Shown here one piece after another: positions 611 through 42,706 of a stretch of DNA of 64,000 nucleotides; the stretch's first letter is position 1, and every line of letters begins with the position of its first letter. A model generated the notes under the pieces. That model had not been told where the DNA came from. It made no database searches and saw only the letters and a program-made list of their open reading frames with translations. Source of the stretch: a virus. The stretch covers positions 1-64,000 of IMG/VR virus record IMGVR_UViG_3300013233_000151; one strand, written 5' to 3'. The translations under genes were made by a program, and so were the position numbers.

Positions 611-1117
611 ATGCCGACGCCCAATGAGGCGACCACATGCGCAGAGGCCATCGCCTCGCAGGTCGTCGATCTGAAAGACACCGAGGTACTGGTCTTGAAG
701 TTGCCGCCCGAGATGGACACAGGCAGCGAAGAGTTCGACCGTCTGCGCACGGAGCTGCGACGCCTGCTCCCTCCAGAGGCCGGGACGATCCGCGCGATCG
801 TGTTACGCAGTGACATGGAGATGCAGGACTTCAACGCCGAGGCGTTGGCGCGCGTCGGGCTCTCGACACGGGAAGCTCCTCCAGGTCCGAGACCTGAGCT
901 GCTGTTCCCGGACGGACCGCTGCGCGCTGCCGCGCAAGCCGGGTGGGACTCGGCGATGGGCACAGATGCAGCGACGCAGGTGCATATCGCCAACGAGGGC
1001 CTGAGAGTCATCGTCCAGGCGAAGATCCTGGACCCAGCGTCCAGAGACGAGCCCGAGTACGTGATAGAGCACAGCCACCCGGACCCGAGGCCGCGCGGAG
1101 GCGGAGGTCCCTTCTGA
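611..1117 (+). CDS. Unknown protein (168 aa)
   Basis: ATG 611 follows GAGG nine bases upstream, within the end of the lysine-tail gene. The protein is acidic and soluble with a Pro/Gly-rich C-terminus (RPRGGGGPF). I do not recognise the family. The DNA for its C-terminal LDPASR stretch contains the first copy of the 17-bp dyad element (1028-1044). The stop at 1115-1117 abuts the HNH nuclease gene, and a CTG codon at 1114 could extend that gene into overlap. Confidence 0.7.
   Translation: MPTPNEATTCAEAIASQVVDLKDTEVLVLKLPPEMDTGSEEFDRLRTELRRLLPPEAGTIRAIVLRSDMEMQDFNAEALARVGLSTREAPPGPRPELLFPDGPLRAAAQAGWDSAMGTDAATQVHIANEGLRVIVQAKILDPASRDEPEYVIEHSHPDPRPRGGGGPF
1028..1044 (+). repeat. 17-bp dyad element, copy 1
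   Basis: CTGGACCCAGCGTCCAG: arms CTGGAC/GTCCAG around a 5-base centre, inside the 168-aa gene. The same 17-mer recurs exactly at 25611 and, inverted, at 4743; variants with centre CCGGT are at 15035 and 42690. Confidence 0.75.
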
Positions 1118-1149
1118 AAATCTACAAGCGACATGACCCGTCGGCCCTT

Positions 1150-1635
1150 ATGGCGAATGGGGGGCGCAGCATCGTTGGACCGAACGGGAAGAAGACGTGC
1201 CGGTGGTGTGGTGTCGAGGTCGCGCCGCCTCGACGATGCTGGTGCTCCGATGAGTGTGTGCACGAGTACAGCATTCGCGCGAACGCGGGCTACGCGCGCA
1301 CGCAGGTCTACCGGCGCGACCGTGGCAAGTGCTGTCTGTGCGGGCTCGATTGCTCGAAGCTGAGCGGACGGCTGAGGAAGCTCCCCTACCAGTGTCGCCG
1401 CACCTACCTTGCGATCCTGGGGCTCCGGGGCTGGCGCTCGACGCTGTGGGAGGTCGATCACACGATCCCGGTCGTCGAGGGCGGCGGCTCGTGCGGGCTC
1501 GATAATCTGCGGACTTTGTGTATTTTTTGTCACCGCAAGGAGACGAAGAAGCTCGCGGCCCGGCGTGCGATATGGCGACGACGCACGCCTAAGCCCTCGT
1601 GCGGGCTCAAGCGGCGTGCGCGTCTCAGTGACTAG
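1150..1635 (+). CDS. HNH endonuclease with zinc-binding N-terminus
   Basis: Nuclease of the HNH (beta-beta-alpha metal) fold, 161 aa from ATG 1150; the frame is open further upstream and CTG 1114 is an alternative start. An N-terminal CxxC / CxC / C cluster (C17, C20, C30, C32, C36) is followed by a second CxxC pair (C61/C62, C64) and the HNH core: D103-H104, N119 and H128, with C124/C127 before the last His. All key residues are present, so it should be active. Free-standing phage HNH genes often act as homing nucleases or assist DNA packaging. With no terminase visible, the role here is open. Its stop overlaps the stop of the reverse gene by 4 bases. Confidence 0.85.
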   Translation: MANGGRSIVGPNGKKTCRWCGVEVAPPRRCWCSDECVHEYSIRANAGYARTQVYRRDRGKCCLCGLDCSKLSGRLRKLPYQCRRTYLAILGLRGWRSTLWEVDHTIPVVEGGGSCGLDNLRTLCIFCHRKETKKLAARRAIWRRRTPKPSCGLKRRARLSD

Positions 1636-1808
1636 ACAGCACCTCCTCGCTCGACGATGAGCTTCTGAATGCGCTTCACGGCTGCCTCAACGACCTTCTG
1701 GTAGCCGGGCGTATTTGACAGCGGGGCCGTGGCCTCGATGCCGTCTCGGCTCTCTACGTGGGTGAAGCAGGCAAGGATGTCGTGGACGACGGTTTCGATA
1801 GGATCCAT
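1632..1808 (-). CDS. Small reverse-strand protein (58 aa)
   Basis: Read on the minus strand, ATG at 1808-1806 is preceded by a good AGGAGG site 9 bases upstream, which decides this start over the longer frame up to 1865. The product begins MDPIETVVHDILACF and is a mostly helical 58-residue protein with no known motif. It converges tail-to-tail with the HNH gene, with a 4-base overlap at 1632-1635. It is one of only two reverse genes in the window. A small regulator is possible but not shown. Confidence 0.6.
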   Translation of the reverse strand: MDPIETVVHDILACFTHVESRDGIEATAPLSNTPGYQKVVEAAVKRIQKLIVERGGAV

Positions 1809-1862
1809 AGGTGTGCCCTCCTTGGGCGATTGGTTTCGGGTCCAACCTGTAGGGGGTGCGAG

Positions 1863-1880
1863 CACTTCGATTCGGAAGTG
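1863..1880. promoter_or_regulatory. Inverted repeat in divergent intergenic region
   Basis: CACTTC-N6-GAAGTG is a perfect 6-bp dyad lying between the reverse gene (start 1808) and the forward promoter at 1921. The position fits an operator for divergent transcription. The 1809-2003 gap holds nothing else but the promoter. Confidence 0.35.
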
Positions 1881-1920
1881 ACAATCTCAGATTCTTTGCG
1901 ATAGGGCGCTCAGCATGGCT

Positions 1921-1950: not shown

Positions 1951-2003
1951 ACGCGCACCCTTCAAGGCCCTTCGGCTCGGCTGTTCAGCCCCGAGGCGCG
2001 CAC

Positions 2004-5000
2004 ATGACGCATACGACTTTCGACAGAGCGATCCTCTCGATCCACTACGCGCACGAGATCACCCTTGGCTCGCCCATGTCACAGACGGTCGATCGTGCGC
2101 GCGGTGCGTTCGAGGGTCCGGTCGAGATCGTGTATGAGGTCGATGGCGGATATGTCGTGCAGGGCGCTTCTGAGGCCGTCTTCATGGGTGACGACGGTGA
2201 GGTGGCGCTCACCGACATCTACGAGTCGCTCGACGAGACGAAGACGCATGACATCATGCGCGGAGGTCTCGGTATCCCTCGCACACGGATGCCGCAGATC
2301 CGTTCAGACCTCGTGCCAGAGTTCCTCGCATACCTGCGCGAGAACGGCGTGACGGTGCGCAAGGGGCGCGCGGCCGTCGGCACGTTGAAGCCGACGCAGG
2401 ATAAGGTGTCGATGGAGAAAGCGGAGGCGCTCGCCACCTCCGCGCCCGAAGCGAAGCTACGACTACCCGTGATCGTGAGCAGCGATCGGCACATCCTCGA
2501 CGGGCACCACCGCTGGGCCGCGCTGTACATGAAGGGCATCGACGAACAGATCGGAACCTACTCGGTGTCGGTCCCGATCAAGAAGCTCCTAGAACTCGCG
2601 CGCGGATTCGGGAAGGTCGGATACAAGGAGCAAGGCGAAGCGATAGAGGACGACGAGACCGACGAAGGGATCAACGACCGCTACATCCTCAAGGCCGTCT
2701 TTATGACGGGCGGTGCGGGAGCGGGAAAGAGCTTCATCTCCGACATCATGTTCGGAGGCACTGGACTCAAAGTCGTGAACTCCGACGAACAGCTCGAACG
2801 CGCGATGAAAAAGGCCGGGCTCGATCTCAAGAAGGACATGGCGTCCTTGCAGGTGCAGGCTCAGGGCGGGCTGCGCGCTCAAGCCAAGGCGACTACCAAC
2901 AAGCGACTCGACCTGTACGTGAAGGGGCGTCTCGGCCTCATCATCGACAGCACGGCCGCGAATGTCGCGTCGGTCCAGAAGAAGGTCAAAGGTCTGCGCG
3001 CTCTTGGATACGACGTGTCGATGGTCTTCGTGAACACGTCACTGGAGACTGCACTCGCGCGCAATCAAGAGCGACCGCGCACCGTTCCGGTTCAGGTAGC
3101 GACGACCGACTGGAAGAAGGTGCAGGGAAACCTCAAGACGTACCGTGCGCTCTTCGGCAGCTCCAACTTCCGCGAGATCAAGAACGACGAGGTGCTGTCG
3201 CCGCGCGAAATCGTTGCGAAGCTAACCCCACAACTCACGAGGGCTGCGATGCCGCTACTGAACAAGCCCGTCCAGAACCCGATCGGGAAGCAGTGGGTGG
3301 AGGATCAGCGAACGCAGCGTGCACAGCAGCTTGCGGCGAGCATTGAGGGCGAGAGGACGATGCTTGTCGAAGATCTGTTCCTCGCGTTAGGTCTGTTGGG
3401 TTCGACCGTTGCTGGTGCTGTGCTGAGCAAGCTCGCCATTGGGGCAAAGCGCACAGTTGAGAAGGCGATACAGCTCCACAAACAGGGGAAGACGAGCGCG
3501 GCCGAACGGGCATTGCTCAAGCTAAGCGCTGACGACCGCCGACAAATCGAGGCACTGCTTAGCCCTACGGGCGTGAAGTCAATTCAACGCACAAACTTTC
3601 GATCACATCGTTCAATGAAACGACAGAGGAATTTCATGCACGAAGAGGCATTGGACGAGAAGGGTGTCGGCCGTACTGACCTTGTGAGGATGCTTGACGC
3701 ACGCACCAAGAAGCTTGAATGGGAGGGTCCGTTGCGTCAGTTTGCGAAGGACAACGCCGACACGCCCGATGTCGTGAAGCAGGTCACGCGCCTTCGTCCG
3801 GGTCAGTCGGTGAAGATTGGAGGCGGGGCGTCGACTGAGTTCATCATCGTGCGCGAGGGCATCGACGAGTACGACGTGGAGACGGATCGCATTCCTGACT
3901 TGGAGGGTCGCTGGCGGCGTATGGTCGAGGGCGAAGTTGTGCACATCACGGATACCGAGTGGGATGAACTGTCCGACCGAGCGCCGGAGGGGACGCGCAT
4001 TCGATCGAATGCCGACGACTCCATCACGGACTGCGAGCTGTACCTTGCTCGATATGCGCCGATTGATGAGTACACTGCGCTCGGAAACTTCGAGGTGCAG
4101 CAGCATCGTCGGGATACGCCGCGCGAGTCGCATTGGGTCGGAGGCAACTTGAAGTCCGCGAAGGCAAAGGCGAAGGAGCTGAGCAAGAGTGACGTAGGCA
4201 CTGCGTATGTCGTCAACACCGCGAAGGTGTCGCCCCGCACTGGTCGCTCGAAGCCCGTGGCGGCGTTCAGTCAGGGCAAGTCGATCACGCCCGAGCAGGC
4301 TGCTTTTGGTGAGTCGTACGAGGAAGGAGAGATGTCGCTCGTGGAGATCGAGTGCCTCCACATGGACGACCTCGCAGATGCCCTCCAGGTTGCGATTCAG
4401 CAGAATCCTTCGGACGTGCATCTCGTTGGAGAGCACTTCGGTCAGTTAGAGGCTGCGGTCGAAGACGGCAACTTCGAGAAGGCCGAGTTGATCTTCGAGC
4501 AGATCATCAAGGCGCTGCCGCTCGACGAGGCGACGCGCATGAGCACGCACGCGCGGATCAGTCGCGTGCGCAACGCACGGCGCGGCTCCACGAAGTCCAT
4601 GCAGTCGGGCGCGAAGAACCGAGGTCAGGTCAGGCAGGAGAACCGCAAGAAGCGAATCGCACGCCGCTCGTTACCCACGAGTCGCATGAAGGCGCAGCGC
4701 ATGAGCAACGTCAAGCGCAGCCTCAGCATCGCGCGCGAAGCTCTGGACGCTGGGTCCAGGAATCGGCTCGAAGAGGCCGCGTTGTACTGGACGCGGAGTG
4801 GCGGGCTGGCTGATTTCGGTGACGACGACGACGCCGGTAAGGCTGCCGCTGCTCAGCTCCACAAAGGGCTGTTGAAGCTCGGATTCGAGTACGCGCGGAG
4901 AGTCCCGGGCGGCGGTCGGCTCGGAGCCATGTATCAGTACCGCTCCGGCAACTTCGAGGTGGGTTGCAGTCAGCTCGTTCCTCCTCATACCGCGTCGGTG

Positions 5001-7967
5001 ATCGGTCGTGGTTCCAAGACGTATCGCACCGGAGTAACCGCGACCGAGCGTTCGCTCGTTCAAGATCGTGACAGTTTCGCTGGTCGCAATCCGGCGAACG
5101 TGGTGAAGAAGACGCTTGCGTGGTGTGCGTCTGCGGTGAAGACCTACACGGCGGAATCGGTAGAAGAGACGATTTTGGAGAACCCACGGTTCTCTGTTGG
5201 AAGGAGCGCAGATGCGTTCGTGGCTTTGCTCAAGCAGAAGTTGGATGTTCCGTTCGTGAAGGTTCGTATATCGACCATTACAGTACCGTCTGAGGCGCTG
5301 TTGATGGTCAGCCTATCGCTTGATCCTCAAAACGAGTGGGCCAATCGGGTCTATGAAAATTCTCGCTTCTTGAAGTTTAGTCTTAGTCGAGACGGTAGGT
5401 TGCACAACTTCGCAAGTTGGTCTCGAAAGGCAAACATGCGGAAGCAGCAGTACAAGACGCCGGAAGATGCGGTCAAGAAGATCAATGCCTTTATCCATAA
5501 AGCCCGCGAGATCGAGGAGTCGATCGACGAGGGCAACTTTGGCCGCCCTTCTAATTGGCGCGGAGGCATGGCGAAAGCCGGTGAGGCGTTCCAGGCGAAA
5601 GGGTCGGCCAAGACGAAGGCCCGCCTCATCGCAACGCAGCTCGTGCGCGTAGGTGGGGGCGATACGCCCGCGTTCCTGTCGAATGTGGCGAAGCTCTCGA
5701 AGTCCATGAAGGCCCTGAAATACAAGGGCTCGCCCGGCGAGGCATACGAGGTCGTCTACCGTGGGAAGGTGCTCGGTACACTTACGTCGTCCGGCGGCGG
5801 CATGTTCCCGTGGCACGGCGAGAACAAGGCGGGACAGCGGGTCGATGGCGTGGGCTACGGCTCGCTGCACCTCGGGGTCACGCGGATGCTATCTGCCGCG
5901 TTGGGGGATGCGTGGAAGGGGGCCGAGGAGTCGCTCGAAGAGTCACCGCTCGGTCGCGTCAAGCGGTTCCTGCGCGGATCGCACTACACAGCGACCCGTG
6001 AGGTGAATCTCCGGCGCGCGTCGGCCGGGACGGTGGCGGGTGCGCTTGGGATCACGATCAAGAAGGGTGACGACATCCTCGTGACTGGCGTGCAGGGCAA
6101 CGAGGTGAGCTTCACGCACAACGGCACGAAGGCGCGGATGACCAAGAAGGCGTTCTCCAGCTTTGAGCTTGTGGACGAGTCTTTCAAGTCGCAGCTCAAG
6201 TCGAAGAGCTTAGGAAATCCTGGTGAGCAACTTTGGCTCGTTAGATATCCCAATGGTGGCTTTGCAGGAACAGTCCGAGCTGACGATTCTAAACGGGCAG
6301 CTCATCTTGCGGATCAGGCGTTCGGCAGACGGCAGCGCGGGAAGATCGGTGGTCGTGGGAAACTGACACTTATAAAGGAACGCGATGCTTTACCGTCCTT
6401 TCGGAATCGAAAGTATCGTATGTCGTTGGAGTCGCTTGAAGAGAAAGCGCCCCCCGGGTTCGAGGGAACCGTCAAGGCCATGAAGGCCAAAGGGATGCCG
6501 AAGGAGAAAGCCTTCGCGCTCGCGTGGTCGATGTACAACAAGGGGAACAAGTCGCACCGCAAGGACGACGGCTCTCCCAAGGACGAGTCGGTGGATGATG
6601 TTCTCGACGAAAACGTGGGTCAGACGATCCTTCAACAGCTCGGAGGCCGTCGCTTTATCGCCATGACGGGCGCGAAGAACTTTGTCAACCTCAACACCAA
6701 GGAGTACGGGCGAGGTGGGCTCGCGTTCAAGATCGGGCGCAATGCGAAGGGCGTCACTCATGTCCGCATCGTGCTGACCGGCGCTGATCTCTACAGCATC
6801 GACTACCTCGCGGTGCGGGGCACGAGCGAGCCGAAGACCAAGGCCACGTCGAAGGGTGTCTATGCCGAGGATCTGCGCGCCGACTTCACGCGCAAGACTG
6901 GGCTCGCAACCTCGCTTGGCACGATGGGTGAGAGCACCGACGAGGACACGAATGCCCACGGCATGGAGTTCAACGAGCGGCAGCTCTTGAGCATGTACGA
7001 CGACGAGGACGAGGCGACGAAGGGCACGTTCGAGGAGTGGCGGGCCGCGAACTTCACGCAGCTCGACGAGATGAAAGAGATCTCGCTCTCCAGTAAACAG
7101 ATGGCGAAGGCGAAGCGCGTCGTGAAGAAGCACTACGGCATGAGCCGCTTGCCGTCCGAGGACGAGGTGATGGCCGAGATCCGCAACGTCCAACGCAAGC
7201 ACAAGCAGGGCAGCCTCGACGACCGTGGCGAGATGCTCATGGCGGCGTTCGAGATCACGAACGGTGGGGCGATTCGCTTCGAGTCCGTGGACGAGGCGAC
7301 CGGCATCGTGCTCACGGTCGAGCACTCCAAGAAGAACCGTGGTCTGTATCGCATGAAGATCAGCGGATCGGTCGGCAAGATTGGGATTCGCGGCGAGGTG
7401 CGTCCCTTTCACATGGGCATTGAGAAGGAGGCGACGCTTCGCATCGCGGAGCAGCTCACGACCGTCAACCGTTCGGACGGCGGTGGCAAGGAGATGCCGT
7501 TCGGGGCCAAGCGCAAGGTCATCGCGGCCGTGCACGCCAAGCTCCAAGAGATTCACGACAAGCACGAGTCCGTGGACGAGCACGACACGCAGTACAAGAG
7601 CGTGAACGACGCCGCCCACTACGATCCGGGCTATGGCAAGGGCTCGACCGAGATCTGGTACATGCGCGACGCAACTCAGTTCACGTACGGGATGGGAATG
7701 GACTTTCTGATTCGCCACGAGTCGGAATCGGTTCCCACGAAGGCGACGGTCGCCTCCACGCACAAGCTGATCGGCAAGATCAAGCAGTCAAGTCCTGAGC
7801 GCGTTTTCGGCATGATGCAGGGTGAGCGGTGGAGCCCGGACGGCGAAGCCCGTACGATGCTCACCAAGCTAGGCATTCACCACACGTCGATGAGCGTCGG
7901 GGACATCATCAAGACCGGGACCCGCGTGCTGTTCGTAGACCGCAACGGATTCACTCCGCTGAGCTGA
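2004..7967 (+). CDS. Giant polyprotein A: ParB-like and zeta-kinase-like modules, internal head protein candidate
   Basis: 1987 aa. Modules in order: a leader ending in ESLDE (74-78); a ParB/Srx-like segment with DGHHR at 166-170; a zeta-toxin-like P-loop kinase with GGAGAGKS at 236-243 and a Walker-B-like D315 in LIIDST; a hydrophobic helix near 457-480; then many small unknown segments. A PPGFEGTVKAMKAKG module near 1482 and a C-terminal HTSMSVGD domain also occur in other phage proteins. Segments are separated by (L/I/V)DE motifs, for example at 550-552, 620-622, 840-842, 1174-1176, 1534-1536, 1762-1764 and 1857-1859. These match the (L/I)xE cleavage rule of T4 gp21, whose homologue is encoded at 29628. 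I infer a polyprotein cut in the prohead. ATG 2004 is chosen; ATG 2076 is an alternative. Confidence 0.8.
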   Translation: MTHTTFDRAILSIHYAHEITLGSPMSQTVDRARGAFEGPVEIVYEVDGGYVVQGASEAVFMGDDGEVALTDIYESLDETKTHDIMRGGLGIPRTRMPQIRSDLVPEFLAYLRENGVTVRKGRAAVGTLKPTQDKVSMEKAEALATSAPEAKLRLPVIVSSDRHILDGHHRWAALYMKGIDEQIGTYSVSVPIKKLLELARGFGKVGYKEQGEAIEDDETDEGINDRYILKAVFMTGGAGAGKSFISDIMFGGTGLKVVNSDEQLERAMKKAGLDLKKDMASLQVQAQGGLRAQAKATTNKRLDLYVKGRLGLIIDSTAANVASVQKKVKGLRALGYDVSMVFVNTSLETALARNQERPRTVPVQVATTDWKKVQGNLKTYRALFGSSNFREIKNDEVLSPREIVAKLTPQLTRAAMPLLNKPVQNPIGKQWVEDQRTQRAQQLAASIEGERTMLVEDLFLALGLLGSTVAGAVLSKLAIGAKRTVEKAIQLHKQGKTSAAERALLKLSADDRRQIEALLSPTGVKSIQRTNFRSHRSMKRQRNFMHEEALDEKGVGRTDLVRMLDARTKKLEWEGPLRQFAKDNADTPDVVKQVTRLRPGQSVKIGGGASTEFIIVREGIDEYDVETDRIPDLEGRWRRMVEGEVVHITDTEWDELSDRAPEGTRIRSNADDSITDCELYLARYAPIDEYTALGNFEVQQHRRDTPRESHWVGGNLKSAKAKAKELSKSDVGTAYVVNTAKVSPRTGRSKPVAAFSQGKSITPEQAAFGESYEEGEMSLVEIECLHMDDLADALQVAIQQNPSDVHLVGEHFGQLEAAVEDGNFEKAELIFEQIIKALPLDEATRMSTHARISRVRNARRGSTKSMQSGAKNRGQVRQENRKKRIARRSLPTSRMKAQRMSNVKRSLSIAREALDAGSRNRLEEAALYWTRSGGLADFGDDDDAGKAAAAQLHKGLLKLGFEYARRVPGGGRLGAMYQYRSGNFEVGCSQLVPPHTASVIGRGSKTYRTGVTATERSLVQDRDSFAGRNPANVVKKTLAWCASAVKTYTAESVEETILENPRFSVGRSADAFVALLKQKLDVPFVKVRISTITVPSEALLMVSLSLDPQNEWANRVYENSRFLKFSLSRDGRLHNFASWSRKANMRKQQYKTPEDAVKKINAFIHKAREIEESIDEGNFGRPSNWRGGMAKAGEAFQAKGSAKTKARLIATQLVRVGGGDTPAFLSNVAKLSKSMKALKYKGSPGEAYEVVYRGKVLGTLTSSGGGMFPWHGENKAGQRVDGVGYGSLHLGVTRMLSAALGDAWKGAEESLEESPLGRVKRFLRGSHYTATREVNLRRASAGTVAGALGITIKKGDDILVTGVQGNEVSFTHNGTKARMTKKAFSSFELVDESFKSQLKSKSLGNPGEQLWLVRYPNGGFAGTVRADDSKRAAHLADQAFGRRQRGKIGGRGKLTLIKERDALPSFRNRKYRMSLESLEEKAPPGFEGTVKAMKAKGMPKEKAFALAWSMYNKGNKSHRKDDGSPKDESVDDVLDENVGQTILQQLGGRRFIAMTGAKNFVNLNTKEYGRGGLAFKIGRNAKGVTHVRIVLTGADLYSIDYLAVRGTSEPKTKATSKGVYAEDLRADFTRKTGLATSLGTMGESTDEDTNAHGMEFNERQLLSMYDDEDEATKGTFEEWRAANFTQLDEMKEISLSSKQMAKAKRVVKKHYGMSRLPSEDEVMAEIRNVQRKHKQGSLDDRGEMLMAAFEITNGGAIRFESVDEATGIVLTVEHSKKNRGLYRMKISGSVGKIGIRGEVRPFHMGIEKEATLRIAEQLTTVNRSDGGGKEMPFGAKRKVIAAVHAKLQEIHDKHESVDEHDTQYKSVNDAAHYDPGYGKGSTEIWYMRDATQFTYGMGMDFLIRHESESVPTKATVASTHKLIGKIKQSSPERVFGMMQGERWSPDGEARTMLTKLGIHHTSMSVGDIIKTGTRVLFVDRNGFTPLS
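4743..4759 (-). repeat. 17-bp dyad element, copy 2 (reverse orientation)
   Basis: CTGGACGCTGGGTCCAG, the exact reverse complement of copies 1 and 4. It lies inside polyprotein A, coding ALDAGSR. Confidence 0.75.
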
Positions 7968-7977: not shown

Positions 7978-10900
7978 ATGAAGAAGCAAACCACCGGCTC
8001 GGGCATGGCGGGCGAGATCGCCACCTACGTCATGCGCGGCAACCGCACGCCCTACGATCTCCGCCAGCATTTCCGCCTCACGCTCCCGGCGGCTCAGAAG
8101 ATCATGGATCAGTCCAACTACGCCTTCGGCCCGGGCGGAAAGGGCTACGCCTGGTACATGAAGCAGGTCGGCAACGTGCTCAAGGGCGGAAACGTGTTCG
8201 AGGCCACGAACGCACAGAGCATCGCCGCAGGTGCGTTGGGCGCGATGAATCGAGGCCGCGACGCGAGCGTTCAATTCATCAACGAGGGTGTGCCGGAGAC
8301 GCACCAGCGCAAGATCGCAGTCGCCACGCTCAAGATGAGCGCGATGGGCGCGAAGATCGCGGGCGGCATGGATCACGCCGGAGCCGTAGCGGTGCTCAAG
8401 GACGCGGGCTGGTCCCCCGCGAAGATCGCTGCCCAGCTCAAGAAGGCCGGACATGACGCGGCTGACATCAAGAAGTGGATGCACGAGTCGCTGGATGAGG
8501 ACGAGAAGGCCAACGCTCGGAAGATGAAGGCGAAGGGTTACCGCTTCATCATCGAGTTCCCGAACAACAAGCCCGCGCCGCTGTACGCGAAGACGCTCTC
8601 GATGGCGACCGAGATCATCAAGGACCACGGTGCGCCGAAGGGCGTCAAGGGTCAGCCGATCGACAAATTCCTCAACGAAGACTCTGAGGACGACGAGCTG
8701 GACGAGGCGCTCGGAGCGAAGGACAAGAAGGTGATCGCGGCGTTCACGGACAAGAAGCCGATGGACGGTCCGAAGCTCTCCACGGATGGCGAGACGCTCG
8801 ACTTCAACGGCATGGGCGGTCGCGGTGTTGCGTCGTGGTCGAACGGCAAGATCTACATGGGCGACACCGGCAGCACGCAAGACGATGCGGTGCACCGCGC
8901 GATTCGCAAGACCGCGCCGCGTAACTGGATCGGTGAGTCCACCGACGAAGCGAGCCCGTCCGTGCTCGGCGACAAGCTCAAGGCGATGTTCGACGCGGAG
9001 TATTCGCTCAACCACGGCAAGGGCAAGGACGCGGCTGCGTCGGTCAAGAAGGCTCTCGAAGCGAAGGTCAAGAAGCTCGCTTCCGAGCTGGGGAAGGTAG
9101 GCGGCTACAAGTATCTCGTGAGCCCCGCGCTGAACAACGCGCGCAAGGGCACGAGCTGGTCGAAGTTCGCGCGCAACATGGTCACGTCGAACCTCGACAT
9201 GGGCGAGTCGCTCGATGAAGCCGTCCAGGTCACGGCTGCGTACGCGCTGGCGAACATGAAGCGCGGCGATCGCGTCGAGCTTTCGACGCCGCAGTCGGGC
9301 AACCAGACGCGCAAAGGCAAGGCCGTGATGCGCGGACCCCACGGATGGGCGGTCGATCTTGGAGGCAAGCATGGCACGCCCGGCGTTGCCACCGAACGCA
9401 ACCTCATCAAGTGGAAGGCTCACCCGGTTGTGAGCGAGGCGAGGGGAGCGGGTAAAGGTGAGTTGGCAGGTAGGCGCATCGGCGTCGGCACCGTCAAGAA
9501 GTCAGCGAGTGGTGCGAAGGATAGGGCCTCTGCTAAGCGCATCGTCGAGGGCGTGCTTGGAATTCAAGACCGTGCACACGCACGACAGCTTGGGATCGAC
9601 GAGAGCGTCTTGGGTCGTGCGAACGGTCTGCCGACTGCGCTGCGCAAGTATTCGCACGCGCTCCCCAAAGGTCTTGGTAAGCCGCAGAAGTACGAGACGC
9701 GAGACGGCGTGAAGGAGGGCTACTACCTCACACTCACCGACAACAAGCGCGGGCTATCCAATCGTCCCGGTTCGTCGAGCGGCAGCCTCACCGCCGTCTT
9801 CACGGTCGAGAACCTGCTCAGTCAGTTCAAGAAGGCGGAGGGTGAGCACGGTCAGCACGGTCACACGACGTTGACTTTCAAGAAGGGCGAGGGCAAGGCT
9901 CCGAAGATTGTTGAAGCCCGTCTCTCGGGCGGCAGCGGAGGCAGTTCCAAGAAGGCGTCACGCAAGGATGATCCCGAAGCCGCAGGTTCGAGTAGGTTCG
10001 CTGCTCAGGGCGTCGGAAAGAAGGCCAAGCGTGAGAGCGACCACGGCGAGCACCACAGCAACTACGAGTCTGTGGAAGAGGCCAAGGGAGACCCGGTGCG
10101 GCTCAAGGTCATAAGCGCCGTTCGTGTTTCGTCCGTGGTTCCCGGAGCGACGGCGGGGGTCACGCTTCAAGATCAGACGGTTCTTTTTCGATCGACCGAT
10201 TACGACGGGCGTGGTGGTGTGACGGGTCCGTTTGTCCTCGTGGACTCGACGGACGCGATGTTCGCGGTGCTGAACTTCGGATGGAACGTCGGTTTTGAGG
10301 AAGAGCGCGGTCTCAACAAGAAGGCCCACGCTGCGATGCGTAGGAATGCGGCGCGGGCGTTCAAGCAGTTCTTGAAACGGACCAACGAATCCAACGACGA
10401 CAACACCGACGACCTCTCCGCCAAGAAGGAGTCGGGTCTCAAGGCCAAGGCGAAGGAGATGGGAGCCATCAAGGTCTCGGGCAAGGGTCCTAGCGTGAAC
10501 GCCACCTTCAAGGACAAGGCCACGGCCGAGAAGTTCTATCGGCACGCCAAGACGGTCGGCAAGGCGTCGATGCGCCGCAGTGGCGACACCGAGTTCACGA
10601 TCAGCATCGACGAGTCCGAGGACTGCCCGGAGATCGTGGACATCGGCGATGGTCGCTACTACATCGAAGGCGTCGGCATGTGTGAGTCGCTCGATGAGGC
10701 GCAGGGTCATCTGCTGCTCGATGAGGACGTGCTCGACGAGATGAAGAAGTCCAAAGGACACGTCGCATTCCTGGGTGACTTCGAGTACGTGATCGTGAAC
10801 GGCGGCGAGGGCATGGTGCTGGGACGCGCCCCGACCTCCAATGCCTTCGACCAGACGGGTAACCGTCACGCGCGTTTCGAGGCCCCGGCGTGGCAGGCCG

Positions 10901-13900
10901 AGCAAGCGATGAAGCTCGCGTTCAGTGGCTTTCGGCAGAAGGTCGATCCGAAGGCGATGCAGAGGCTCAAGCGATTGCTCAAAGAAGACGTGGACGAAGG
11001 CGCGGAGACGCTGCGCGTCAAGATCCTCGACATCTTCGACAATGGTGAAGATTTTCATCCGCGCTACACCGTCAACATCGAGACCAACAACCGCGACATA
11101 TACACGTTTGGGATGTTCGAGCCCGGCACCGAGCCCGACTCACAACAGGGGAACGCGGTGGTGTCGAACTTCACCAACTTCCTCAAGGGTGGAGCGCGTC
11201 GCGGCGAGCACGCGATGAAGGTGTCGATGAAGCGTCTCCCGGCTTCGCTGCGCGGTCAGCTCGAAACGCTCATCGCCGACCCGAGCCCTTGGTGGGGAGA
11301 TCTGGAGTACGACGAAGATCTCGACGAGATGGGGCAGATTTACAGGATCGGAGCTGGGGGCCTCAAGCCCATCGACACCACGATCTTTCTCGCTCCCAAC
11401 TCGTCCTATTACCTCGGTGCGTCCACCACCCCACATCACATTGTCGTGACGGCGGTGTCGGATTCGCAGATTACATATTGTCAGTATCCGTACACGACAT
11501 CGCAGCGAATCGAGACGGAGATCGGCAAAGATCTGATTGCGCAAGGCACGAGCCGTTACATGAAGACGTACGCTGCCTATCTTGACCCCAAGCAGAAGGC
11601 GACGTGGGTGGCGAATCTCAAAGGCAAGAAGGGTCCTTTGAACGGCAAGCAGCCCGTCAAGGGCTTCCAGCGGGTGCTCGTTACCTGCGTCGCCAACGCG
11701 AAGACGCGCGATCTATACGGTCAGACGAAGAGCTATGGCGTCCTGACCGACTACTGGCAGAGTGGTAAGCCCGGTGCGAAGGGCGACAACGCCAGTAAGG
11801 AAACGAGCGTCATCAAGGTCGCGCGCAATATGGTCCCGGCCATGAAGTCGAGCGGTGACTTCGATATCGTGACGGTCGGTCGCAAAGTTGTGGAGTCGGA
11901 CGAGGATTACTGCGATTGGATCGACGAGAACGGTATCGACGAGTTCACGAGCGCCGCCATCCCGGCCATCGGCACCATGCACCCGTGGGTCAGTCCCTAC
12001 GGGAGCGAGATGTCGCTGATCGGTGGAGCCGATGACCTGGAGGACGACGAGGACGCAGACAACGAGTTCGCGCTCGACGAGAACGGAAACTTCGAGCTAG
12101 TAGATGAGGCCAAGTCCTCCAAGTTCTCGGTCAAGTGCCTGGAGTGCGGCAAGAAGTTCAAGACCGCCTCGATGAGCCCGACCTGTCCGAAGTGCAAGGG
12201 CTCCGACATCGAGCCCGACTACGACGCGCCCCGTCGTCGGAAGCGCAACGAGGACGTGGAAGACGAACTCGACGAATCCGTCAAGCCAACCGTCGAGGGC
12301 TTTCATTTTATCCTCACGGGTGCGCTGACTCAGTACGACGTGCAGCAGATGGCGCGTGCGGCGAAGAAGAGAGGCGGCTATCACAACGCGAATGCGTTAG
12401 GTCTGTACTTTCAAGCGTTAGAGCGGGCCGAGAAGGATCCGAAGATGCGCGGTGTCAAGAAGACATCTTCGGATCACGAGGATTTGCGTAAGCTCATCGC
12501 GGTGCTCTCAGATTACTTCGATCCGCATTTCCCTCCGATCAAGAAGACGATCAAGCAGATCCAAGCTTTCATCGACTCCGGAAAGCTTCCCAAGTACCCG
12601 ACGCCTCCCAAGAAGCGCAAGATCTCGGATAGCATCGAGATCCCAGAGGTCGATGAGGCGTGGCCGGTGCGTGGTACGGGCGGCGCGGGTGGCGGCAAGC
12701 CTAACCTCAAGGCAGAACGCAAGGGGCCTCGCGGGCAGGGAACCGACGATTTTGAATTCGCGGACGAGGATCTCGACGAAGGCTCGTCGCTCCACGACGC
12801 GCTCATCGCACTGTTCGTCAGCAATCGAGGACGCGCCTACACGGCGAGCACCATCGCCAAGCTCCAAACGGTCAGCCTCGCGGAAGCGATGCGGACGCTC
12901 ACGGTGCTGGTCCGAGAGGGCACGCTCCGGTTCAAGCGCGGCGAGGGCTATTCGCTACGCGGCAACCCTAACGCACTCAGGGTCGCGGGAGCTTCGGAGC
13001 CCAAGGCACCGCTGTCCTCTCGGCTCTACAATCAGCGTACGAACAGCTCGCCCGCGTCCATGCGCGAGGACGTGGATGAGGCTGTCGATCCGCTCAAGGC
13101 GTTCAAGGGACGCCCTCGTGACTGGACAGCAAAGCAGAACCGCGACGCTGTGGAGATGCTTTCTGGGTGGTCTCTCAAGAAGCTGCGTAAGCACCAAGAC
13201 CTGAACAAACGACAGATCGTCACAGCACATCGACAGGGGAATACCGAGGCGCTGGAGAATCTGCAAGCGATGGAGAACGTTTACATCGGTGCGATTATGC
13301 GGCGGGAGGTCGGAGAGTCCGTGGACGAGGATAGTTCTTCGAGCGGCACGCTCTACACGGGAACCGGGCGCACCGGACCCGCTGGGCCGAAGCTCCCTCG
13401 GCATCTTACGGCGTCCGACTTCTCGAAGGGTGACGCGGGCGGTAACGGCCCCGTGAACCACGAGCAGCTTAGAGGCCCGGCCCCGGATGCCAAGCGCAGC
13501 GCGATGGTGTTTGCCGAGGACGACGAAGACGACGTGGACGAAGGGTTGGGTCGGAAGGTCTTTTACACAGCGGACGGTATCGGCAAAGCGAAGTACATCG
13601 TCAACTTTCACGACGGGAAGAAGTCGCATGGCGACGGCAGCCCGTTCTACGACATCGCCATCTTTGCGAGCAAAGCCAAGCGTGCGACGAAGGTGAAGGA
13701 GCTGCTGAAACAGGGATACAAAGAGGTCAGTTCGGCGGTTCACGAGACCACTACGTCTGGTGGCGTCGGAGGCTTCTCCAGTGAGCCGATCGGCAGCTAC
13801 CCGGAGAACTGTGGTCGCACCGGAGGCATCCGTGATGACAGCAAGAAGAAGAAGGGGCCTCGCTCCGTCTTCGACAACGGAGCGATCGGTCGCGTGCTCG

Positions 13901-15489
13901 AACAGATGCGCGAGTCCATGCCGGGTAAGACGGACGAGGAGCTTATGGAGCTTCTCGATCTGGACGAAGGCGGCGAGCGTTTCAAGAAGCTGGAGAAGGA
14001 GATCGCTGCCAAGGGCGACGTGCGAGATCCCGGCGCGGTCGCGGCGGCGATCGGACGCAAGAAGTACGGCAAGAAGAAGTTTCAGAAGATGGCCGCTAAG
14101 GGCCGCGCGGAATCGACGGACGAGACGGGCACGTTGGAGATGACCGTCTACGCGAAGTCGAAGCGTGGACCTTGGGTCACGCTGGATCCCTACGGCGAAG
14201 AGGTTGAGTACCCGAACAAGCAAGAAGCGGTCGCGGCTGCGCGGGAGAAGGCTTCGGTCGAGAACTACGGGTTCGTGTACCGCGACGGCAAGGTGGCGAA
14301 AGAGGATGTGGGTGAGGCGATCGACGAAGCCGCGAAGAAGCTCAAGGTCGGCAAGGCTCCGAAGCTCGTGCAGGACACGCTGCGCAGCCTCATGCACAAG
14401 GTCACGTACGAGAAGGGCCGCTTCCTGACTGGCGACATCGTGCGCATGGACAAGGCCAAGAAGGAGGCGGTGATCCAGTGGGCTGTCGGCATGAACGATC
14501 CGCAGATGATGGAGCCGGGGACTATCGACGGTCACATCGAGCGACTCGCCAAGCGTCTCGTCGAGTCGGTCGCGGACAACAAGCGTCCCGTCAGCCTCAA
14601 CCCTGTCGAGCGCGCACTCCTGAGCGCCATTCGGATCGAGCGAGGAAAGCACGGCATCGAGGAGTTGATCGCAACCGACCGATTCCTACAGTCAGTCCCG
14701 TATGCGGACGTGTTGGTGGCGGCTGATAATCTCTCCACCCTCGGGCTCGTGGGTGGGAACGGACGTGGGATTATGACCACGTTCGGAGAGGGCGAAGACG
14801 GCGTGGACGAAGTGGAGTTTCGTACCCTTCGCTATCCCTACAAGGTCGAGACGGCCGTGGGGGCGCATGGTCAGCTCAACGGCGTGCGTTTCTACGAGGA
14901 CGACGCGCAGGCCAAGGCCGACATGCAGAAGCTCGTAAAGCGTGAAGGTCTCGGCAAGGTCACGCTCGTCAAGCGCATGACCGCAGCGGAAGCCAAAGCC
15001 GCACACGTCCCGTACCCGAACGAGTCCGAGGATCCTGGACCCGGTGTCCAGGATGAGCTGGTTGAGGCGGTCTTGAAGACCGGCAACCCGAGCGTGCCGA
15101 GGATCGGCTACGAGCAGGGGCGCTACTGGTATTCGACCGGCGGTGCTAAGAACGGACCCGCTGTCCCACCCTCGAAGCGCAAGGACCGTAGCTTCGCGCG
15201 CGAGAAGTTTCGCCACATGCTTAGTAACGAAGCTGGCGGCGGAATGGGCCAAGCGGCTGCCTCGAAGCTGATCGACAAGCTCGATGCGATGATTCCTGAG
15301 GACGCGGAGGAGACTGGCCCGCGCGAGCCCCTTCAGTTCCCCGAGTCCGCACTCGAACGCTACGTCTTGGCCGCTCAGGCGGCTGGGATTGACGAGGACG
15401 ACCCTTGTTTTGTCTTCGAGGACGGCATCTTCACGGTGGAGGTGCCCGCTGAAATGGCTCCGCGTCTGCGTGAGCTGGTCGGGGTGTAG
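7978..15489 (+). CDS. Giant polyprotein B (2503 aa), internal head protein candidate
   Basis: GAGG eight bases upstream supports ATG 7978, ten bases after polyprotein A. The protein is a chain of 60-150-residue segments divided by ES(L/V/T)DE or (L/I/V)DE motifs. Motif ends are near residues 174, 243, 324, 414, 907, 1007, 1117, 1322, 1433, 1601, 1701, 1784, 1855, 1997, 2049, 2117 and 2278. The next residue is usually Ala or Gly, as at T4 gp21 cut sites. Recognisable pieces are a CxxC-CxxC zinc ribbon (C1387, C1390, C1403, C1406) and a winged-helix-like segment just after 1601 (SLHDALIALF). The rest is unknown, Lys-rich and soluble. A virion-internal polyprotein is inferred. A cytoplasmic multidomain protein is the alternative. 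Confidence 0.8.
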   Translation: MKKQTTGSGMAGEIATYVMRGNRTPYDLRQHFRLTLPAAQKIMDQSNYAFGPGGKGYAWYMKQVGNVLKGGNVFEATNAQSIAAGALGAMNRGRDASVQFINEGVPETHQRKIAVATLKMSAMGAKIAGGMDHAGAVAVLKDAGWSPAKIAAQLKKAGHDAADIKKWMHESLDEDEKANARKMKAKGYRFIIEFPNNKPAPLYAKTLSMATEIIKDHGAPKGVKGQPIDKFLNEDSEDDELDEALGAKDKKVIAAFTDKKPMDGPKLSTDGETLDFNGMGGRGVASWSNGKIYMGDTGSTQDDAVHRAIRKTAPRNWIGESTDEASPSVLGDKLKAMFDAEYSLNHGKGKDAAASVKKALEAKVKKLASELGKVGGYKYLVSPALNNARKGTSWSKFARNMVTSNLDMGESLDEAVQVTAAYALANMKRGDRVELSTPQSGNQTRKGKAVMRGPHGWAVDLGGKHGTPGVATERNLIKWKAHPVVSEARGAGKGELAGRRIGVGTVKKSASGAKDRASAKRIVEGVLGIQDRAHARQLGIDESVLGRANGLPTALRKYSHALPKGLGKPQKYETRDGVKEGYYLTLTDNKRGLSNRPGSSSGSLTAVFTVENLLSQFKKAEGEHGQHGHTTLTFKKGEGKAPKIVEARLSGGSGGSSKKASRKDDPEAAGSSRFAAQGVGKKAKRESDHGEHHSNYESVEEAKGDPVRLKVISAVRVSSVVPGATAGVTLQDQTVLFRSTDYDGRGGVTGPFVLVDSTDAMFAVLNFGWNVGFEEERGLNKKAHAAMRRNAARAFKQFLKRTNESNDDNTDDLSAKKESGLKAKAKEMGAIKVSGKGPSVNATFKDKATAEKFYRHAKTVGKASMRRSGDTEFTISIDESEDCPEIVDIGDGRYYIEGVGMCESLDEAQGHLLLDEDVLDEMKKSKGHVAFLGDFEYVIVNGGEGMVLGRAPTSNAFDQTGNRHARFEAPAWQAEQAMKLAFSGFRQKVDPKAMQRLKRLLKEDVDEGAETLRVKILDIFDNGEDFHPRYTVNIETNNRDIYTFGMFEPGTEPDSQQGNAVVSNFTNFLKGGARRGEHAMKVSMKRLPASLRGQLETLIADPSPWWGDLEYDEDLDEMGQIYRIGAGGLKPIDTTIFLAPNSSYYLGASTTPHHIVVTAVSDSQITYCQYPYTTSQRIETEIGKDLIAQGTSRYMKTYAAYLDPKQKATWVANLKGKKGPLNGKQPVKGFQRVLVTCVANAKTRDLYGQTKSYGVLTDYWQSGKPGAKGDNASKETSVIKVARNMVPAMKSSGDFDIVTVGRKVVESDEDYCDWIDENGIDEFTSAAIPAIGTMHPWVSPYGSEMSLIGGADDLEDDEDADNEFALDENGNFELVDEAKSSKFSVKCLECGKKFKTASMSPTCPKCKGSDIEPDYDAPRRRKRNEDVEDELDESVKPTVEGFHFILTGALTQYDVQQMARAAKKRGGYHNANALGLYFQALERAEKDPKMRGVKKTSSDHEDLRKLIAVLSDYFDPHFPPIKKTIKQIQAFIDSGKLPKYPTPPKKRKISDSIEIPEVDEAWPVRGTGGAGGGKPNLKAERKGPRGQGTDDFEFADEDLDEGSSLHDALIALFVSNRGRAYTASTIAKLQTVSLAEAMRTLTVLVREGTLRFKRGEGYSLRGNPNALRVAGASEPKAPLSSRLYNQRTNSSPASMREDVDEAVDPLKAFKGRPRDWTAKQNRDAVEMLSGWSLKKLRKHQDLNKRQIVTAHRQGNTEALENLQAMENVYIGAIMRREVGESVDEDSSSSGTLYTGTGRTGPAGPKLPRHLTASDFSKGDAGGNGPVNHEQLRGPAPDAKRSAMVFAEDDEDDVDEGLGRKVFYTADGIGKAKYIVNFHDGKKSHGDGSPFYDIAIFASKAKRATKVKELLKQGYKEVSSAVHETTTSGGVGGFSSEPIGSYPENCGRTGGIRDDSKKKKGPRSVFDNGAIGRVLEQMRESMPGKTDEELMELLDLDEGGERFKKLEKEIAAKGDVRDPGAVAAAIGRKKYGKKKFQKMAAKGRAESTDETGTLEMTVYAKSKRGPWVTLDPYGEEVEYPNKQEAVAAAREKASVENYGFVYRDGKVAKEDVGEAIDEAAKKLKVGKAPKLVQDTLRSLMHKVTYEKGRFLTGDIVRMDKAKKEAVIQWAVGMNDPQMMEPGTIDGHIERLAKRLVESVADNKRPVSLNPVERALLSAIRIERGKHGIEELIATDRFLQSVPYADVLVAADNLSTLGLVGGNGRGIMTTFGEGEDGVDEVEFRTLRYPYKVETAVGAHGQLNGVRFYEDDAQAKADMQKLVKREGLGKVTLVKRMTAAEAKAAHVPYPNESEDPGPGVQDELVEAVLKTGNPSVPRIGYEQGRYWYSTGGAKNGPAVPPSKRKDRSFAREKFRHMLSNEAGGGMGQAAASKLIDKLDAMIPEDAEETGPREPLQFPESALERYVLAAQAAGIDEDDPCFVFEDGIFTVEVPAEMAPRLRELVGV
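15035..15051 (+). repeat. 17-bp dyad element, copy 3
   Basis: CTGGACCCGGTGTCCAG, with the dyad extended to 9-bp arms (ATCCTGGAC/GTCCAGGAT). It lies inside polyprotein B. Confidence 0.75.
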
Positions 15490-15523: not shown

Positions 15524-15541
15524 CTGGACAGCACGTCCTAG
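15524..15541. repeat. Degenerate dyad element
   Basis: CTGGAC-N5-GTCCTAG differs from the five 17-bp dyads by one inserted base in the right arm. It is the only such element directly in a leader, 22 bases before the ATG of the 570-aa gene. Confidence 0.35.
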
Positions 15542-19721: not shown

Positions 19722-19925
19722 TTGAGGTGTTTCCTTTGCAAAAAGGTAGTGCGTCCGGGCGAATCCCATACCCCGCACAAGGCACCGATTCAAGGTCGGC
19801 TTAGGGCAACCAACTCACACACGAGCTGCTTTGATGATGCTAAGCGCAGGGGGTACACGAGACCCAAATCCCCGATGATTCAAGCGCATGGCAAAAAAGA
19901 AGGCAAAGAAGAAGGCTCGACGTAA
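19722..19925 (+). CDS. Possible small Cys/His protein
   Basis: A TTG-started frame of 67 aa with CFLC near the N-terminus and two His plus a Cys (HTPHK...SHTSC), compatible with a zinc site. It overlaps the next gene by 38 bases and has no clear ribosome site; a lone GTAGAC lies at 19715 without a matching -10. The reading is plausible but weak. Confidence 0.35.
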   Translation: MRCFLCKKVVRPGESHTPHKAPIQGRLRATNSHTSCFDDAKRRGYTRPKSPMIQAHGKKEGKEEGST

Positions 19926-21138
19926 GGCCGCCCCCACCAAGTACGCGAGCGTAGTGGTCGAGACGCTCGCGCTCGACGAGATTGCGGACGCGCCGTACAA
20001 CGCGCGCCTGATCTCGCAAGAGGCATTGTCAGGGCTCACGCAGAGCCTCCTCGACTTCGGACTTCTCACGCACCCCGTCGTCAACAAGACGGACGACGGC
20101 TACGTGATGGTGAGCGGCCACCAACGCCGCAAGCTCCTACGCGACGCGGGCGTGACAGAAGTGGATTGCATCGTGGTCGAGTTCGACCCCGAGCAAGAGC
20201 GCCACGCCAACTACACGCTCAACAACCGCGAGATCCAGGGTGAGTTCGTTCCCGAACTGCTCAAGGATGTGTTGCAGCGGCTCAAGGAAGGCGCGGGCGA
20301 CGACTACAAGAAGATGTTCGAGCGCCTGCGCTTCGACACCTTGTACCGCTCGGTCACGCGACAGCTTGCCAAGAAGGTCGATCCGGCGAAGAACGGTAAG
20401 GTCTCACGCGGCAAGACGCGCGACGACGACATCCCGAACCTCGCGCGCTCAAAGGCCGTGTCGCAAGAGGGCGAAGTCTACCGGCTCGGCGATCACCTGC
20501 TCTACTGCGGCAAGGTGCGCGCGCCCGGTGCGCTCTCTATTTTCAACGTCGAGCAAGCCGACATCGCGTTCAGTTGGTACAGACAAGACGATCCGTTCAC
20601 GGAGGAGTTCCTCCAGGTCACGATCGGGCACACTCTCCAGAACACCGAAGGCGCGGTCTATCTGTCCACGCACTTTGATTCTCTAGCGGACGTGCAGAAC
20701 GCTTTCGACGCGATGGGCGGTCACTGGAGCAACACGCTCATGTGCACGTCGCCCACCACGAAGAAGGGGCTCAAGACGGATATCTACCGCGACGTGGTGG
20801 TGCCGGTCGTGTACGGGTGGCGCGAAGGAGCGCACCACACCTTTTTTGGTGGACGCCGCACGTCGAACCTCATGCCTCTGGAGACTTCACCGCTCAAGAC
20901 CGACGTAGCGGTTGAGATCGTGCTCGCGGCCTTGAAGAACAGCTCTCGTCCAGGCAACACGGTGCTCGACGCCTACATGGCGCACGGCGCGACGCTGATC
21001 GCAGCCGAGAAGTCCGGCCGCAAACTCATTGGCTACGTGGGTTCGGTCCGCGAGATGGACCGCATACGAAATCGTTGGACTCGTTTCGTTTACGGGCCGA
21101 GCGCCGATTGGAGAAAGAAGACGGAGGCACTTGGTTGA
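19888..21138 (+). CDS. ParB-like / degenerate DNA methyltransferase fusion
   Basis: 416 aa. A basic N-terminal tail (KKKAKKKARRK) is followed by a ParB/Srx-type domain with SGHQRRKLL, then a domain collinear with N4/N6 DNA methyltransferases. At the catalytic position, where its paralogue at 23882 has TDPPYN, this protein has ADIAFSWY (224-231). In the AdoMet loop it has DAYMAHGAT (361-369) instead of DPFAGSGTT. Both key motifs are therefore lost while the frame is intact, so it is probably a catalytically dead partner or DNA-binding subunit. The ribosome site is weak; the next gene overlaps as TTGA. Confidence 0.8.
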   Translation: MAKKKAKKKARRKAAPTKYASVVVETLALDEIADAPYNARLISQEALSGLTQSLLDFGLLTHPVVNKTDDGYVMVSGHQRRKLLRDAGVTEVDCIVVEFDPEQERHANYTLNNREIQGEFVPELLKDVLQRLKEGAGDDYKKMFERLRFDTLYRSVTRQLAKKVDPAKNGKVSRGKTRDDDIPNLARSKAVSQEGEVYRLGDHLLYCGKVRAPGALSIFNVEQADIAFSWYRQDDPFTEEFLQVTIGHTLQNTEGAVYLSTHFDSLADVQNAFDAMGGHWSNTLMCTSPTTKKGLKTDIYRDVVVPVVYGWREGAHHTFFGGRRTSNLMPLETSPLKTDVAVEIVLAALKNSSRPGNTVLDAYMAHGATLIAAEKSGRKLIGYVGSVREMDRIRNRWTRFVYGPSADWRKKTEALG

Positions 21139-25129: not shown

Positions 25130-25633
25130 ATGATCCTCATCGCAGGACTGCCTTCCAGCGGCAACCATCTTGTTTACACGCACGTTCGCAGGGGCGTGGC
25201 GGCGCGCGATGGTGAGCACAGCGTCGAGGGCGTGGACCGTGAGACGGTGCAGATCTGGCACGGCGACAACGAGAGCCCGAACCTCAAGCGCCCCGAGGGA
25301 GATCGCGTGGTGCTCGTCATACCTGTGCGCAACGAAGCGGTGCGTAAGCTGTCGCTACAGCTCCGCATGGAGACACAAAAGCGCGGACCCTTCCCGCTCG
25401 ATAATGATACGATGCGTCGCAACGTAGCGCGCCTTATCGTGCGCGAGGATGCGTGCTGGTACGGCGTCAGCTACGAGGGCCTGATTGTGGATTCGGAACG
25501 CCTTGGTCGGGACCTCTTCGACTGGTTAGGTCTCCCGTGGGTGGAGTGGCCGGACGATGGGAGGTCGCATCAAGGACCCGTTTTCGACGCCAATAAGGCA
25601 CATTCTTCGTCTGGACCCAGCGTCCAGACCTGA
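25130..25633 (+). CDS. Sulfotransferase-like P-loop protein
   Basis: 167 aa. GLPSSGNH at residues 6-13 is the PAPS-binding loop type of sulfotransferases; VIPVRNEAVRKLSL resembles the 3'-phosphate loop; VSYEGLI...DLFDWLGLPW matches the C-terminal YEDL...FLGLP signature. It is short for the family (usually 220-300 aa), so some of the substrate domain is missing. The substrate is unknown. It starts 4 bases after the methyltransferase. The last codons lie in a copy of the 17-bp dyad. Confidence 0.6.
   Translation: MILIAGLPSSGNHLVYTHVRRGVAARDGEHSVEGVDRETVQIWHGDNESPNLKRPEGDRVVLVIPVRNEAVRKLSLQLRMETQKRGPFPLDNDTMRRNVARLIVREDACWYGVSYEGLIVDSERLGRDLFDWLGLPWVEWPDDGRSHQGPVFDANKAHSSSGPSVQT
25611..25627 (+). 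repeat. 17-bp dyad element, copy 4
   Basis: CTGGACCCAGCGTCCAG, with the dyad extended to 8-bp arms (GTCTGGAC/GTCCAGAC). It sits at the 3' end of the sulfotransferase-like gene, 29 bases before the MazG-like start. Confidence 0.75.
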
Positions 25634-42088: not shown

Positions 42089-42130
42089 TTCTCGAATCAA
42101 CCTACACCTCCTTGAGCCAGGAGATTTACC

Positions 42131-42670
42131 ATGCCCCTCGACACTCTGAATGCTGACCATATCGGTCAGGTCGGCGGCGGCTTCGAGCCGCAGCGGACTA
42201 ATAACATCCTCTTCACCGTCACGGGTCTGGCGGGTAACGACAACGATGTCATCACGTTGTCGTTCACTTCGGGTCCGCTACCGAAGATGAGCATCACTCC
42301 GATTGAGGTTCGCTACCTCAATCAGACGCGGAAGTTCGCCGGTACGGTGGTCTACGAGGATGTCCCGATGATCTTCAACGACTACGTGGATCAGGAGACG
42401 GCGACCGTCCTCGCCAACTGGTTCTACCTGGCGCACAACCCGCTCAGCGGCAAGACCGCCTTGGCGAGGGACTACAAGAAAAACGGTCGCCTGACCCTGT
42501 ACGGTCCTCAAGGTACGTTCGACCGCGAGTGGGAGATTCAGGGCGCGTGGATCAGCAACTACGACCCGGGCGACGCTGACATGGAAGGCGAAGACCGCGT
42601 GCGCATCACCGCGACCATCACGATCGACAAGGCCGTTTACATCCCGTCCAACCTGTCGGCGACGGGCTAG
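42131..42670 (+). CDS. Tail tube protein (T4 gp19-like)
   Basis: 179 aa, AGGAG before ATG 42131. Length, position after the sheath and the sequence (VYEDVPMIFNDYVDQETATVLANWF..., YGPQGTFDREWEIQGAWISN) fit a gp19/T4-like tube protomer that stacks in hexamers on the baseplate. A dyad hairpin follows the gene. Confidence 0.9.
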   Translation: MPLDTLNADHIGQVGGGFEPQRTNNILFTVTGLAGNDNDVITLSFTSGPLPKMSITPIEVRYLNQTRKFAGTVVYEDVPMIFNDYVDQETATVLANWFYLAHNPLSGKTALARDYKKNGRLTLYGPQGTFDREWEIQGAWISNYDPGDADMEGEDRVRITATITIDKAVYIPSNLSATG

Positions 42671-42689
42671 TGCCCCCTGACCGCAATCT

Positions 42690-42706
42690 CTGGACCCGGT
42701 GTCCAG
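42690..42706 (+). repeat. 17-bp dyad element, copy 5
   Basis: CTGGACCCGGTGTCCAG in the 83-base gap between the tube and chaperone genes. The arms extend to 10 bp (ATCTCTGGAC/GTCCAGAGAT). It is the only exact copy in an intergenic region. Confidence 0.8.

Follow-up and report, generated by a model that had tools for sequence, protein, structure and literature searches.

The stretch analysed here, referred to as the window, comprises positions 1 to 64,000 of the viral record IMGVR_UViG_3300013233_000151. It contains five exact copies of the 17-bp dyad CTGGAC-N5-GTCCAG, one of them inverted, at the positions where an earlier note on this DNA had placed them. These copies, together with one imperfect match, are as follows.

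1028..1044, plus strand: exact site copy (CTGGACCCAGCGTCCAG) within gene 611-1117, with GATC on the left flank.
4743..4759, minus strand: exact site copy, inverted, within the 1987-aa gene 2004-7967.
15035..15051, plus strand: exact site copy (CTGGACCCGGTGTCCAG) within the 2503-aa gene, ∼440 bp from the gene end, with GATC on the left flank.
15524..15540, plus strand: imperfect match with 2 mismatches, probably due to chance.
25611..25627, plus strand: exact site copy at a gene junction, just 5' of the stop codon of gene 25130-25633.
42690..42706, plus strand: exact site copy at the junction upstream of a T4-baseplate-family gene at 42754.

None of 100 dinucleotide-shuffled versions of the window contained an exact match, and the number expected per 64 kb from a Markov simulation was 0.017, in agreement with the earlier estimate of far fewer than one by chance. 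When two mismatches were tolerated, 10 matches (including the five exact ones) were found and ∼4 were expected by chance; the match at 15524, previously counted as a sixth copy, is therefore probably noise.

The full record (71,961 bp) held seven exact copies, with the two beyond the window located at 66299 and 71617. Across IMG/VR, the motif turned up in 13 stretches distributed over 10 contigs, nine of which had one copy each. The contig with four exact copies (G001, 74,460 bp) overlapped both ends of the record in inverted orientation, over 139 bp at 97% identity and 85 bp at 98%. A 156-kb relative, G012, spans both contigs, being collinear over 25-90 kb with the record and over 101-156 kb and 0-9 kb with G001 once this is reversed. 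On the basis of the end overlaps and the collinearity, the record and G001 were treated as one circular genome of ∼146.3 kb, designated genome C; given overlaps of 97-98%, the two contigs may stem from close strains rather than from a single clone. The search of the complete genome that the earlier note had proposed yielded 11 exact sites plus one near copy with a single outer mismatch (C 94780), so that enrichment was seen in the rest of the genome as well; its counterpart in relatives is described below. The 12 sites lie in both orientations, ∼12 kb apart on average. Pfam matches to the Gp23 capsid protein, a prohead protease, and a T4 baseplate protein identify genome C as a T4-superfamily myovirus. 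Megablast of window positions 1-25000 against isolated phages gave no match, and the capsid proteins of isolated relatives (SP-15, LIS04) were only ∼30% identical. In the other half of the genome, L030:7266-8933 combines Hint, LAGLIDADG, and PDDEXK domains and corresponds to an intein or intein-like element.

The central 5 bp read CCRGY in all copies when these were viewed in one orientation. An outward extension of the palindrome, reported earlier for three copies, was present at 15035, 25611, and 42690 (arms of 9, 8, and 10 bp, respectively) but did not hold genome-wide, where the first flanking pairs matched in 4 of 12 copies. GATC adjoined an arm in 8 of the 12 copies versus an expectation of 3.3% per site (p=6e-10). 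These GATC flanks, for example at 1024-1027 and 15031-15034, could belong to a longer half-site or have to do with methylation.

The relatives identified by their capsid proteins almost all lacked CTGGAC-N5-GTCCAG. The sole exception was G011 (88% identity), which carried the motif three times in the form CTGGAC[AG]C[AT]GTGTCCAG. We scanned blindly, enumerating all gapped palindromes with no sequence assumed. Of the 14 IMG/VR genomes or contigs scanned from the phage group, 12 had this architecture as their leading palindrome, with bases that were genome-specific, each relative having its own dominant palindrome in the same register as that of genome C. The dispersed palindrome was weak in G032, and G033 had no convincing one; both are short ParB-bearing fragments. 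The palindromes of the relatives were the following.

G012: AGTGACA-N3-TGTCACT, with 17 copies of GTGACA-N3-TGTCAC.
G028: TTGACGC-N-GCGTCAA, 25 copies out of 27 of TTGAC-N5-GTCAA.
G023 and G029: TTGAC-N5-GTCAA, 20 copies in G023 and 8 in G029.
G034, G019, and G024: TGACA-N3-TGTCA, 12 copies in G034, 7 in G019, and 4 in G024.
G022: GTGAC-N5-GTCAC, 10 copies.
G015: TAACAC-N-GTGTTA, 5 copies.
G026: CAACAA-N-TTGTTG, 5 copies.

Genome C stood alone in having the half-site TGGAC in place of TGAC.

Site positions of genome C were mapped onto G012 by using blastn anchors. Eight of the 12 sites fell within 75 bp (3 to 71 bp) of a G012 site of differing sequence; as a control, 1.7% of random genome C positions and 6% of intergenic positions were within 60 bp of a G012 site. 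The conserved positions include 25611, which matches G011 position 14959 (CTGGACACTGTGTCCAG) and lies within 3 bp of G012 position 49040 (AGTGACAGCGTGTCACT), and the palindrome keeps its place there when the three genomes are aligned. Of 11 genomes, 9 (C, G011, G012, G019, G023, G024, G026, G028, and G029) had a palindrome of their own type in the junction ahead of the baseplate gene (42690), whereas G015 had only a degenerate palindrome and G022 none of its own type. Not conserved in G012 were the in-gene sites at 1028, 4743, and 15035: the closest mapped G012 site was 935 bp away from the first, none was near the second, and the third had its closest one at a distance of 450 bp, where the same 2503-aa gene ends. 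Retention of position combined with coordinated replacement of sequence is the trace expected of a co-evolving DNA-binding protein.

The sites also favored gene junctions. With gene calls from a simple purpose-made gene caller, the fractions located between genes or no more than 25 bp from a gene end were 8/12 in C, 15/17 in G012, 18/27 in G028, 12/20 in G023, 6/8 in G015, and 6/7 in G019, compared with 9-18% expected; G022 exhibited no such preference. The earlier description of four copies as lying inside genes is correct for the window, but the copy at 25611 is 7 bp before a stop codon, and most copies in the whole genome are at junctions. Sites were spaced more evenly than expected at random in G012, G028, and G019; for genome C the effect was borderline (p=0.06), and in G023, G015, G029, G034, and G022 it was not significant.

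Two other elements were noted. A TGTAGAC box followed after ∼17 bases by a TANNCT-like box occurs at 1920, 15485, 33801, and 39081 of the window and at 66339 and 132500 in genome C; the pair recurs at several corresponding positions in G012 and looks like a promoter family of the phage group. The baseplate gene at 42754 has its ribosome-binding site within a hairpin at 42729-42746 (CTCCTGACACCGCAGGAG), which is kept with other letters in several relatives (for example, CTCCTTTCAGCGGAAGGAG and CTCCTTCTAACGTTGGAG); its conservation suggests translational control.

A candidate reader of the sites is encoded in the other half of genome C.

L030:16349-17593 (C 108744-109988), minus strand: parB, encoding 414 aa, with ParB_N and HTH_ParB domains (Pfam).

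The Pfam scan covered most genes of genome C, leaving out several very large genes and two cut by locus boundaries, and a DNA-binding helix-turn-helix domain was confidently recognized in just one product of the scanned genes, ParB. The ParB_N (CTPase) domain (PF02195) scored over the cut-off (E=3.5e-15), and HTH_ParB (PF17762) scored E=5.1e-5, with 23.8 bits against a cut-off of 22.6 and with agreement from the fold matches. A profile search of the PDB with this protein returned Spo0J (E=1e-24), Noc (1e-22), and KorB (1e-7), as well as ParB. Its AlphaFold model (mean pLDDT 69, core >80) matched Noc, ParB, and the KorB-KorA structure 8qa9, the last having the highest target-normalised TM-score among the top matches (TMt 0.79). 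The CTP-pocket motifs GERR and AENSxxxRxNL were kept in all 10 aligned family members. The N-terminal tail is Lys/Ala-rich and resembles HC2. We conclude that the 414-aa protein is a member of the ParB/Spo0J family, for which CTP binding, clamp closure, and sliding are predicted. The ParA-binding motif [LFI]G[KR]G[LFI] was absent from all 10 aligned members, and no ParA family member was found among the scanned genes of genome C, several large genes being outside the scan. A scan of bacterial genomes for ParB retrieved only distant ParBs and pointed to no host.

Two other candidates were rejected: C 111561-112544 as ParB, since the Pfam match belongs to C 108744-109988, and the minus-strand gene 60605-61156 as a regulator, since it looks like a NUMOD4/HNH homing endonuclease gene, with related genes elsewhere in G012, G015, G022, and G023. 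A second ParB-fold protein of the genome is encoded at 19888-21138, where a weak ParB_N is fused to an N6/N4 DNA methyltransferase with no HTH_ParB. One phage contig (L124) has a tandem pair of genes of this ParB family, at 8624-9877 and 9881-10906.

Several observations connect ParB to the palindromes. In four relatives (G015, G034, L123, and G028), a copy of the palindrome overlaps the -35 box upstream of parB, and in L123 this copy, found blind, is one of just two in 13 kb. The chance of a parB-promoter site in four such genomes is ∼3e-4, a rough estimate that allows for the intergenic preference. A site follows parB by 57 bp in C and by 68 bp in G012, ahead of a 5'-3' exonuclease gene, and L124 has a site in front of what appears by eye to be the same exonuclease gene. 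A centromere-like site near parB, as looked for in ParABS systems, was thus present in C, G012, G015, G028, G034, and L123. The most divergent site (CAACAA-N-TTGTTG) accompanies the most divergent ParB helix-turn-helix, that of the tandem ParBs of L124/L125; L125, which encodes those ParBs, and G026, a capsid-gene contig of the same metagenome, have this site in common. The ParB-site pairs (n=7) were too few for a statistical test of covariation. In the recognition helix, the genome C ParB (KKVQRS) has Q where 8 of the 9 other aligned ParBs have R, but the L123 ParB also has Q and yet keeps TGAC; the difference between TGGAC and TGAC can therefore not be put down to this residue alone. Among other phages, Gordonia phage Schnabeltier (ParB_N+HTH_ParB) had no strong dispersed dyad, and Citrobacter phage K1M, which encodes an HTH_ParB protein, offered nothing convincing, its repeated GCCCC-N4-GGGGC looking terminator-like.

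The results are best explained by the palindromes being parS/OB/NBS-like loading sites for the phage's own ParB-family protein, a reading to which we assign a probability of roughly 0.7. A ParB dimer would use its helix-turn-helix domain to recognize both half-sites; with CTP bound, it would then close as a clamp and slide off along the adjacent DNA, a load-close-slide mechanism that we modeled on the characterized ParB, Noc, and KorB proteins (PMC7053999, PMC8429893, PMC11790492). Twelve sites ∼12 kb apart would allow loading all around the ∼146-kb genome. The sites on the parB promoters suggest autorepression, and those at parB itself most likely serve autoregulation; the other junction sites would probably modulate transcription and/or organize the replicating phage DNA. 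Classical partition is an unlikely role because no ParA partner was found. Of the functions considered in the earlier note, a partition-protein-type site doubling as an operator is the one favored by the presence of a phage ParB and of the palindrome on the relatives' parB promoter, whereas stoperators and RNA hairpins are not, and nothing speaks for packaging. More tentatively, a ParA-less viral ParB clamp might load at spaced sites genome-wide and coat or organize the replicating phage chromosome. It would then serve as a global regulator and as a viral chromatin switched by CTP, and the specificities of protein and site would diverge jointly between related phages, each phage marking only its own DNA; we regard this wider proposal as speculative and less likely than not.

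The most serious competitor, although a distinctly less probable one, is that the palindromes are operators of another, unrecognized dimeric phage transcription factor that represses or activates junction promoters without involvement of ParB. Many genome C genes have no Pfam match, and some sites have promoter-like surroundings: in G023, 5 of 20 sites form the -35 region of sigma-70 promoters (TTGACA/TATACT-like, with at least 5/6 matches in the -10 box; control 0.7%), and in G012, a site precedes 4 of the 10 promoter-like TGTAGAC boxes by 24-59 bp. Many sites, however, are distant from recognizable promoters or deep within giant genes. Among the scanned proteins, ParB alone has a confident DNA-binding domain of the helix-turn-helix type, and the parB promoter carries a site in four relatives.

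An action in the transcript, as terminators or as processing or attenuation signals, would fit the capacity of every copy to form a stem-loop, the proximity of most copies to stop codons, and the presence of an unrelated G+C-rich hairpin at some junctions. The stems lack a following T-run, however, sites also occur inside long genes, and the arm bases are invariant within each genome but switched between genomes. At the ±2 position from the center, each half-site tolerates A or G (G022, G023, G028, G029, and G034), and on the sense strand A..C (12) was about as frequent as G..T (13) when the five genomes were summed; since the G-U-compatible arrangement is not commoner, RNA pairing appears not to be selected. 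We consider the RNA hairpins suggested in the earlier note improbable. Packaging, recombination, or mobile-element sites, or recently spread repeat copies, would account for identical copies across the genome but are very improbable, given that packaging signals are usually few, that the flanks of the copies are not homologous save for GATC, and that orthologous positions with coordinated sequence replacement are unexpected for a mobile repeat. Equally hard to sustain are stoperators in the strict sense, at which the lysogeny repressor of Cluster A mycobacteriophages blocks elongation: these too are dispersed at short intergenic intervals but lack symmetry and are recognized by a repressor monomer (PMC9283540), whereas the present sites are symmetric and lie in both orientations, with no integrase or immunity repressor family among the scanned genes.

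The assignment of the palindromes to ParB offers dispersed phage dyads, seen before and left unexplained, a candidate partner in an orphan CTPase of the ParB family. Together with sites placed as for autoregulation and a sequence that clearly switches from relative to relative, this turns an unexplained repeat into a testable system. The relatives provide natural protein-site pairs for the study of how ParB specificity evolves, and the findings suggest that some large phages mark or regulate their own genome with a DNA clamp of the bacterial-chromosome type. The earlier dyads, TGTTCGG-N3-CCGAACA, are 17 bp long and occur in 34 dispersed copies in Cluster O mycobacteriophages; the authors judged a transcriptional role unlikely, gave no function, and proposed no link to ParB (PMC4351075). 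Like the sites of genome C, these dyads are odd-centered, mostly conserved in position, and in many cases intergenic, and a protein with a ParB-like domain (Smooch gp92) is encoded in the same genome. The Cluster O phages differ in being unrelated siphoviruses, and in Smooch gp92 only ParB_N is recognized, not HTH_ParB. A 2025 survey catalogs numerous orphan proteins with a ParB fold, some of them from phages; the portion of it considered here makes no link to dispersed sites (PMC12704722); among open-licence papers, we found no report tying dispersed phage dyads to a phage ParB.

By E-value, the best profile and fold matches were to the Noc-NBS and Spo0J/ParB-parS systems (PMC8429893, PMC7053999), which likewise use short palindromic nucleation sites, and the drift of site specificity between relatives seen here is also known for ParB/Noc (PMC7383237). 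In contrast to the 16-bp parS and NBS, the phage site is odd-centered, and the sites are spread across the whole viral genome, unlike their chromosomal counterparts. The phage ParB differs from Noc and Spo0J in lacking the ParA motif and in having the Lys/Ala-rich N-terminal tail. The KorB-OB system of plasmid RK2 offers a further parallel: KorB is a ParB-family CTPase clamp that silences genes over long range from OB and, by loading and sliding, reaches promoters up to 1.5 kb away (PMC11790492). The phage system departs from it in being viral rather than plasmid-borne, in using other palindromes, and in matching KorB less strongly in sequence than Spo0J or Noc; it resembles KorB-OB in combining a ParB-fold protein with dispersed palindromic sites located both near and far from promoters.
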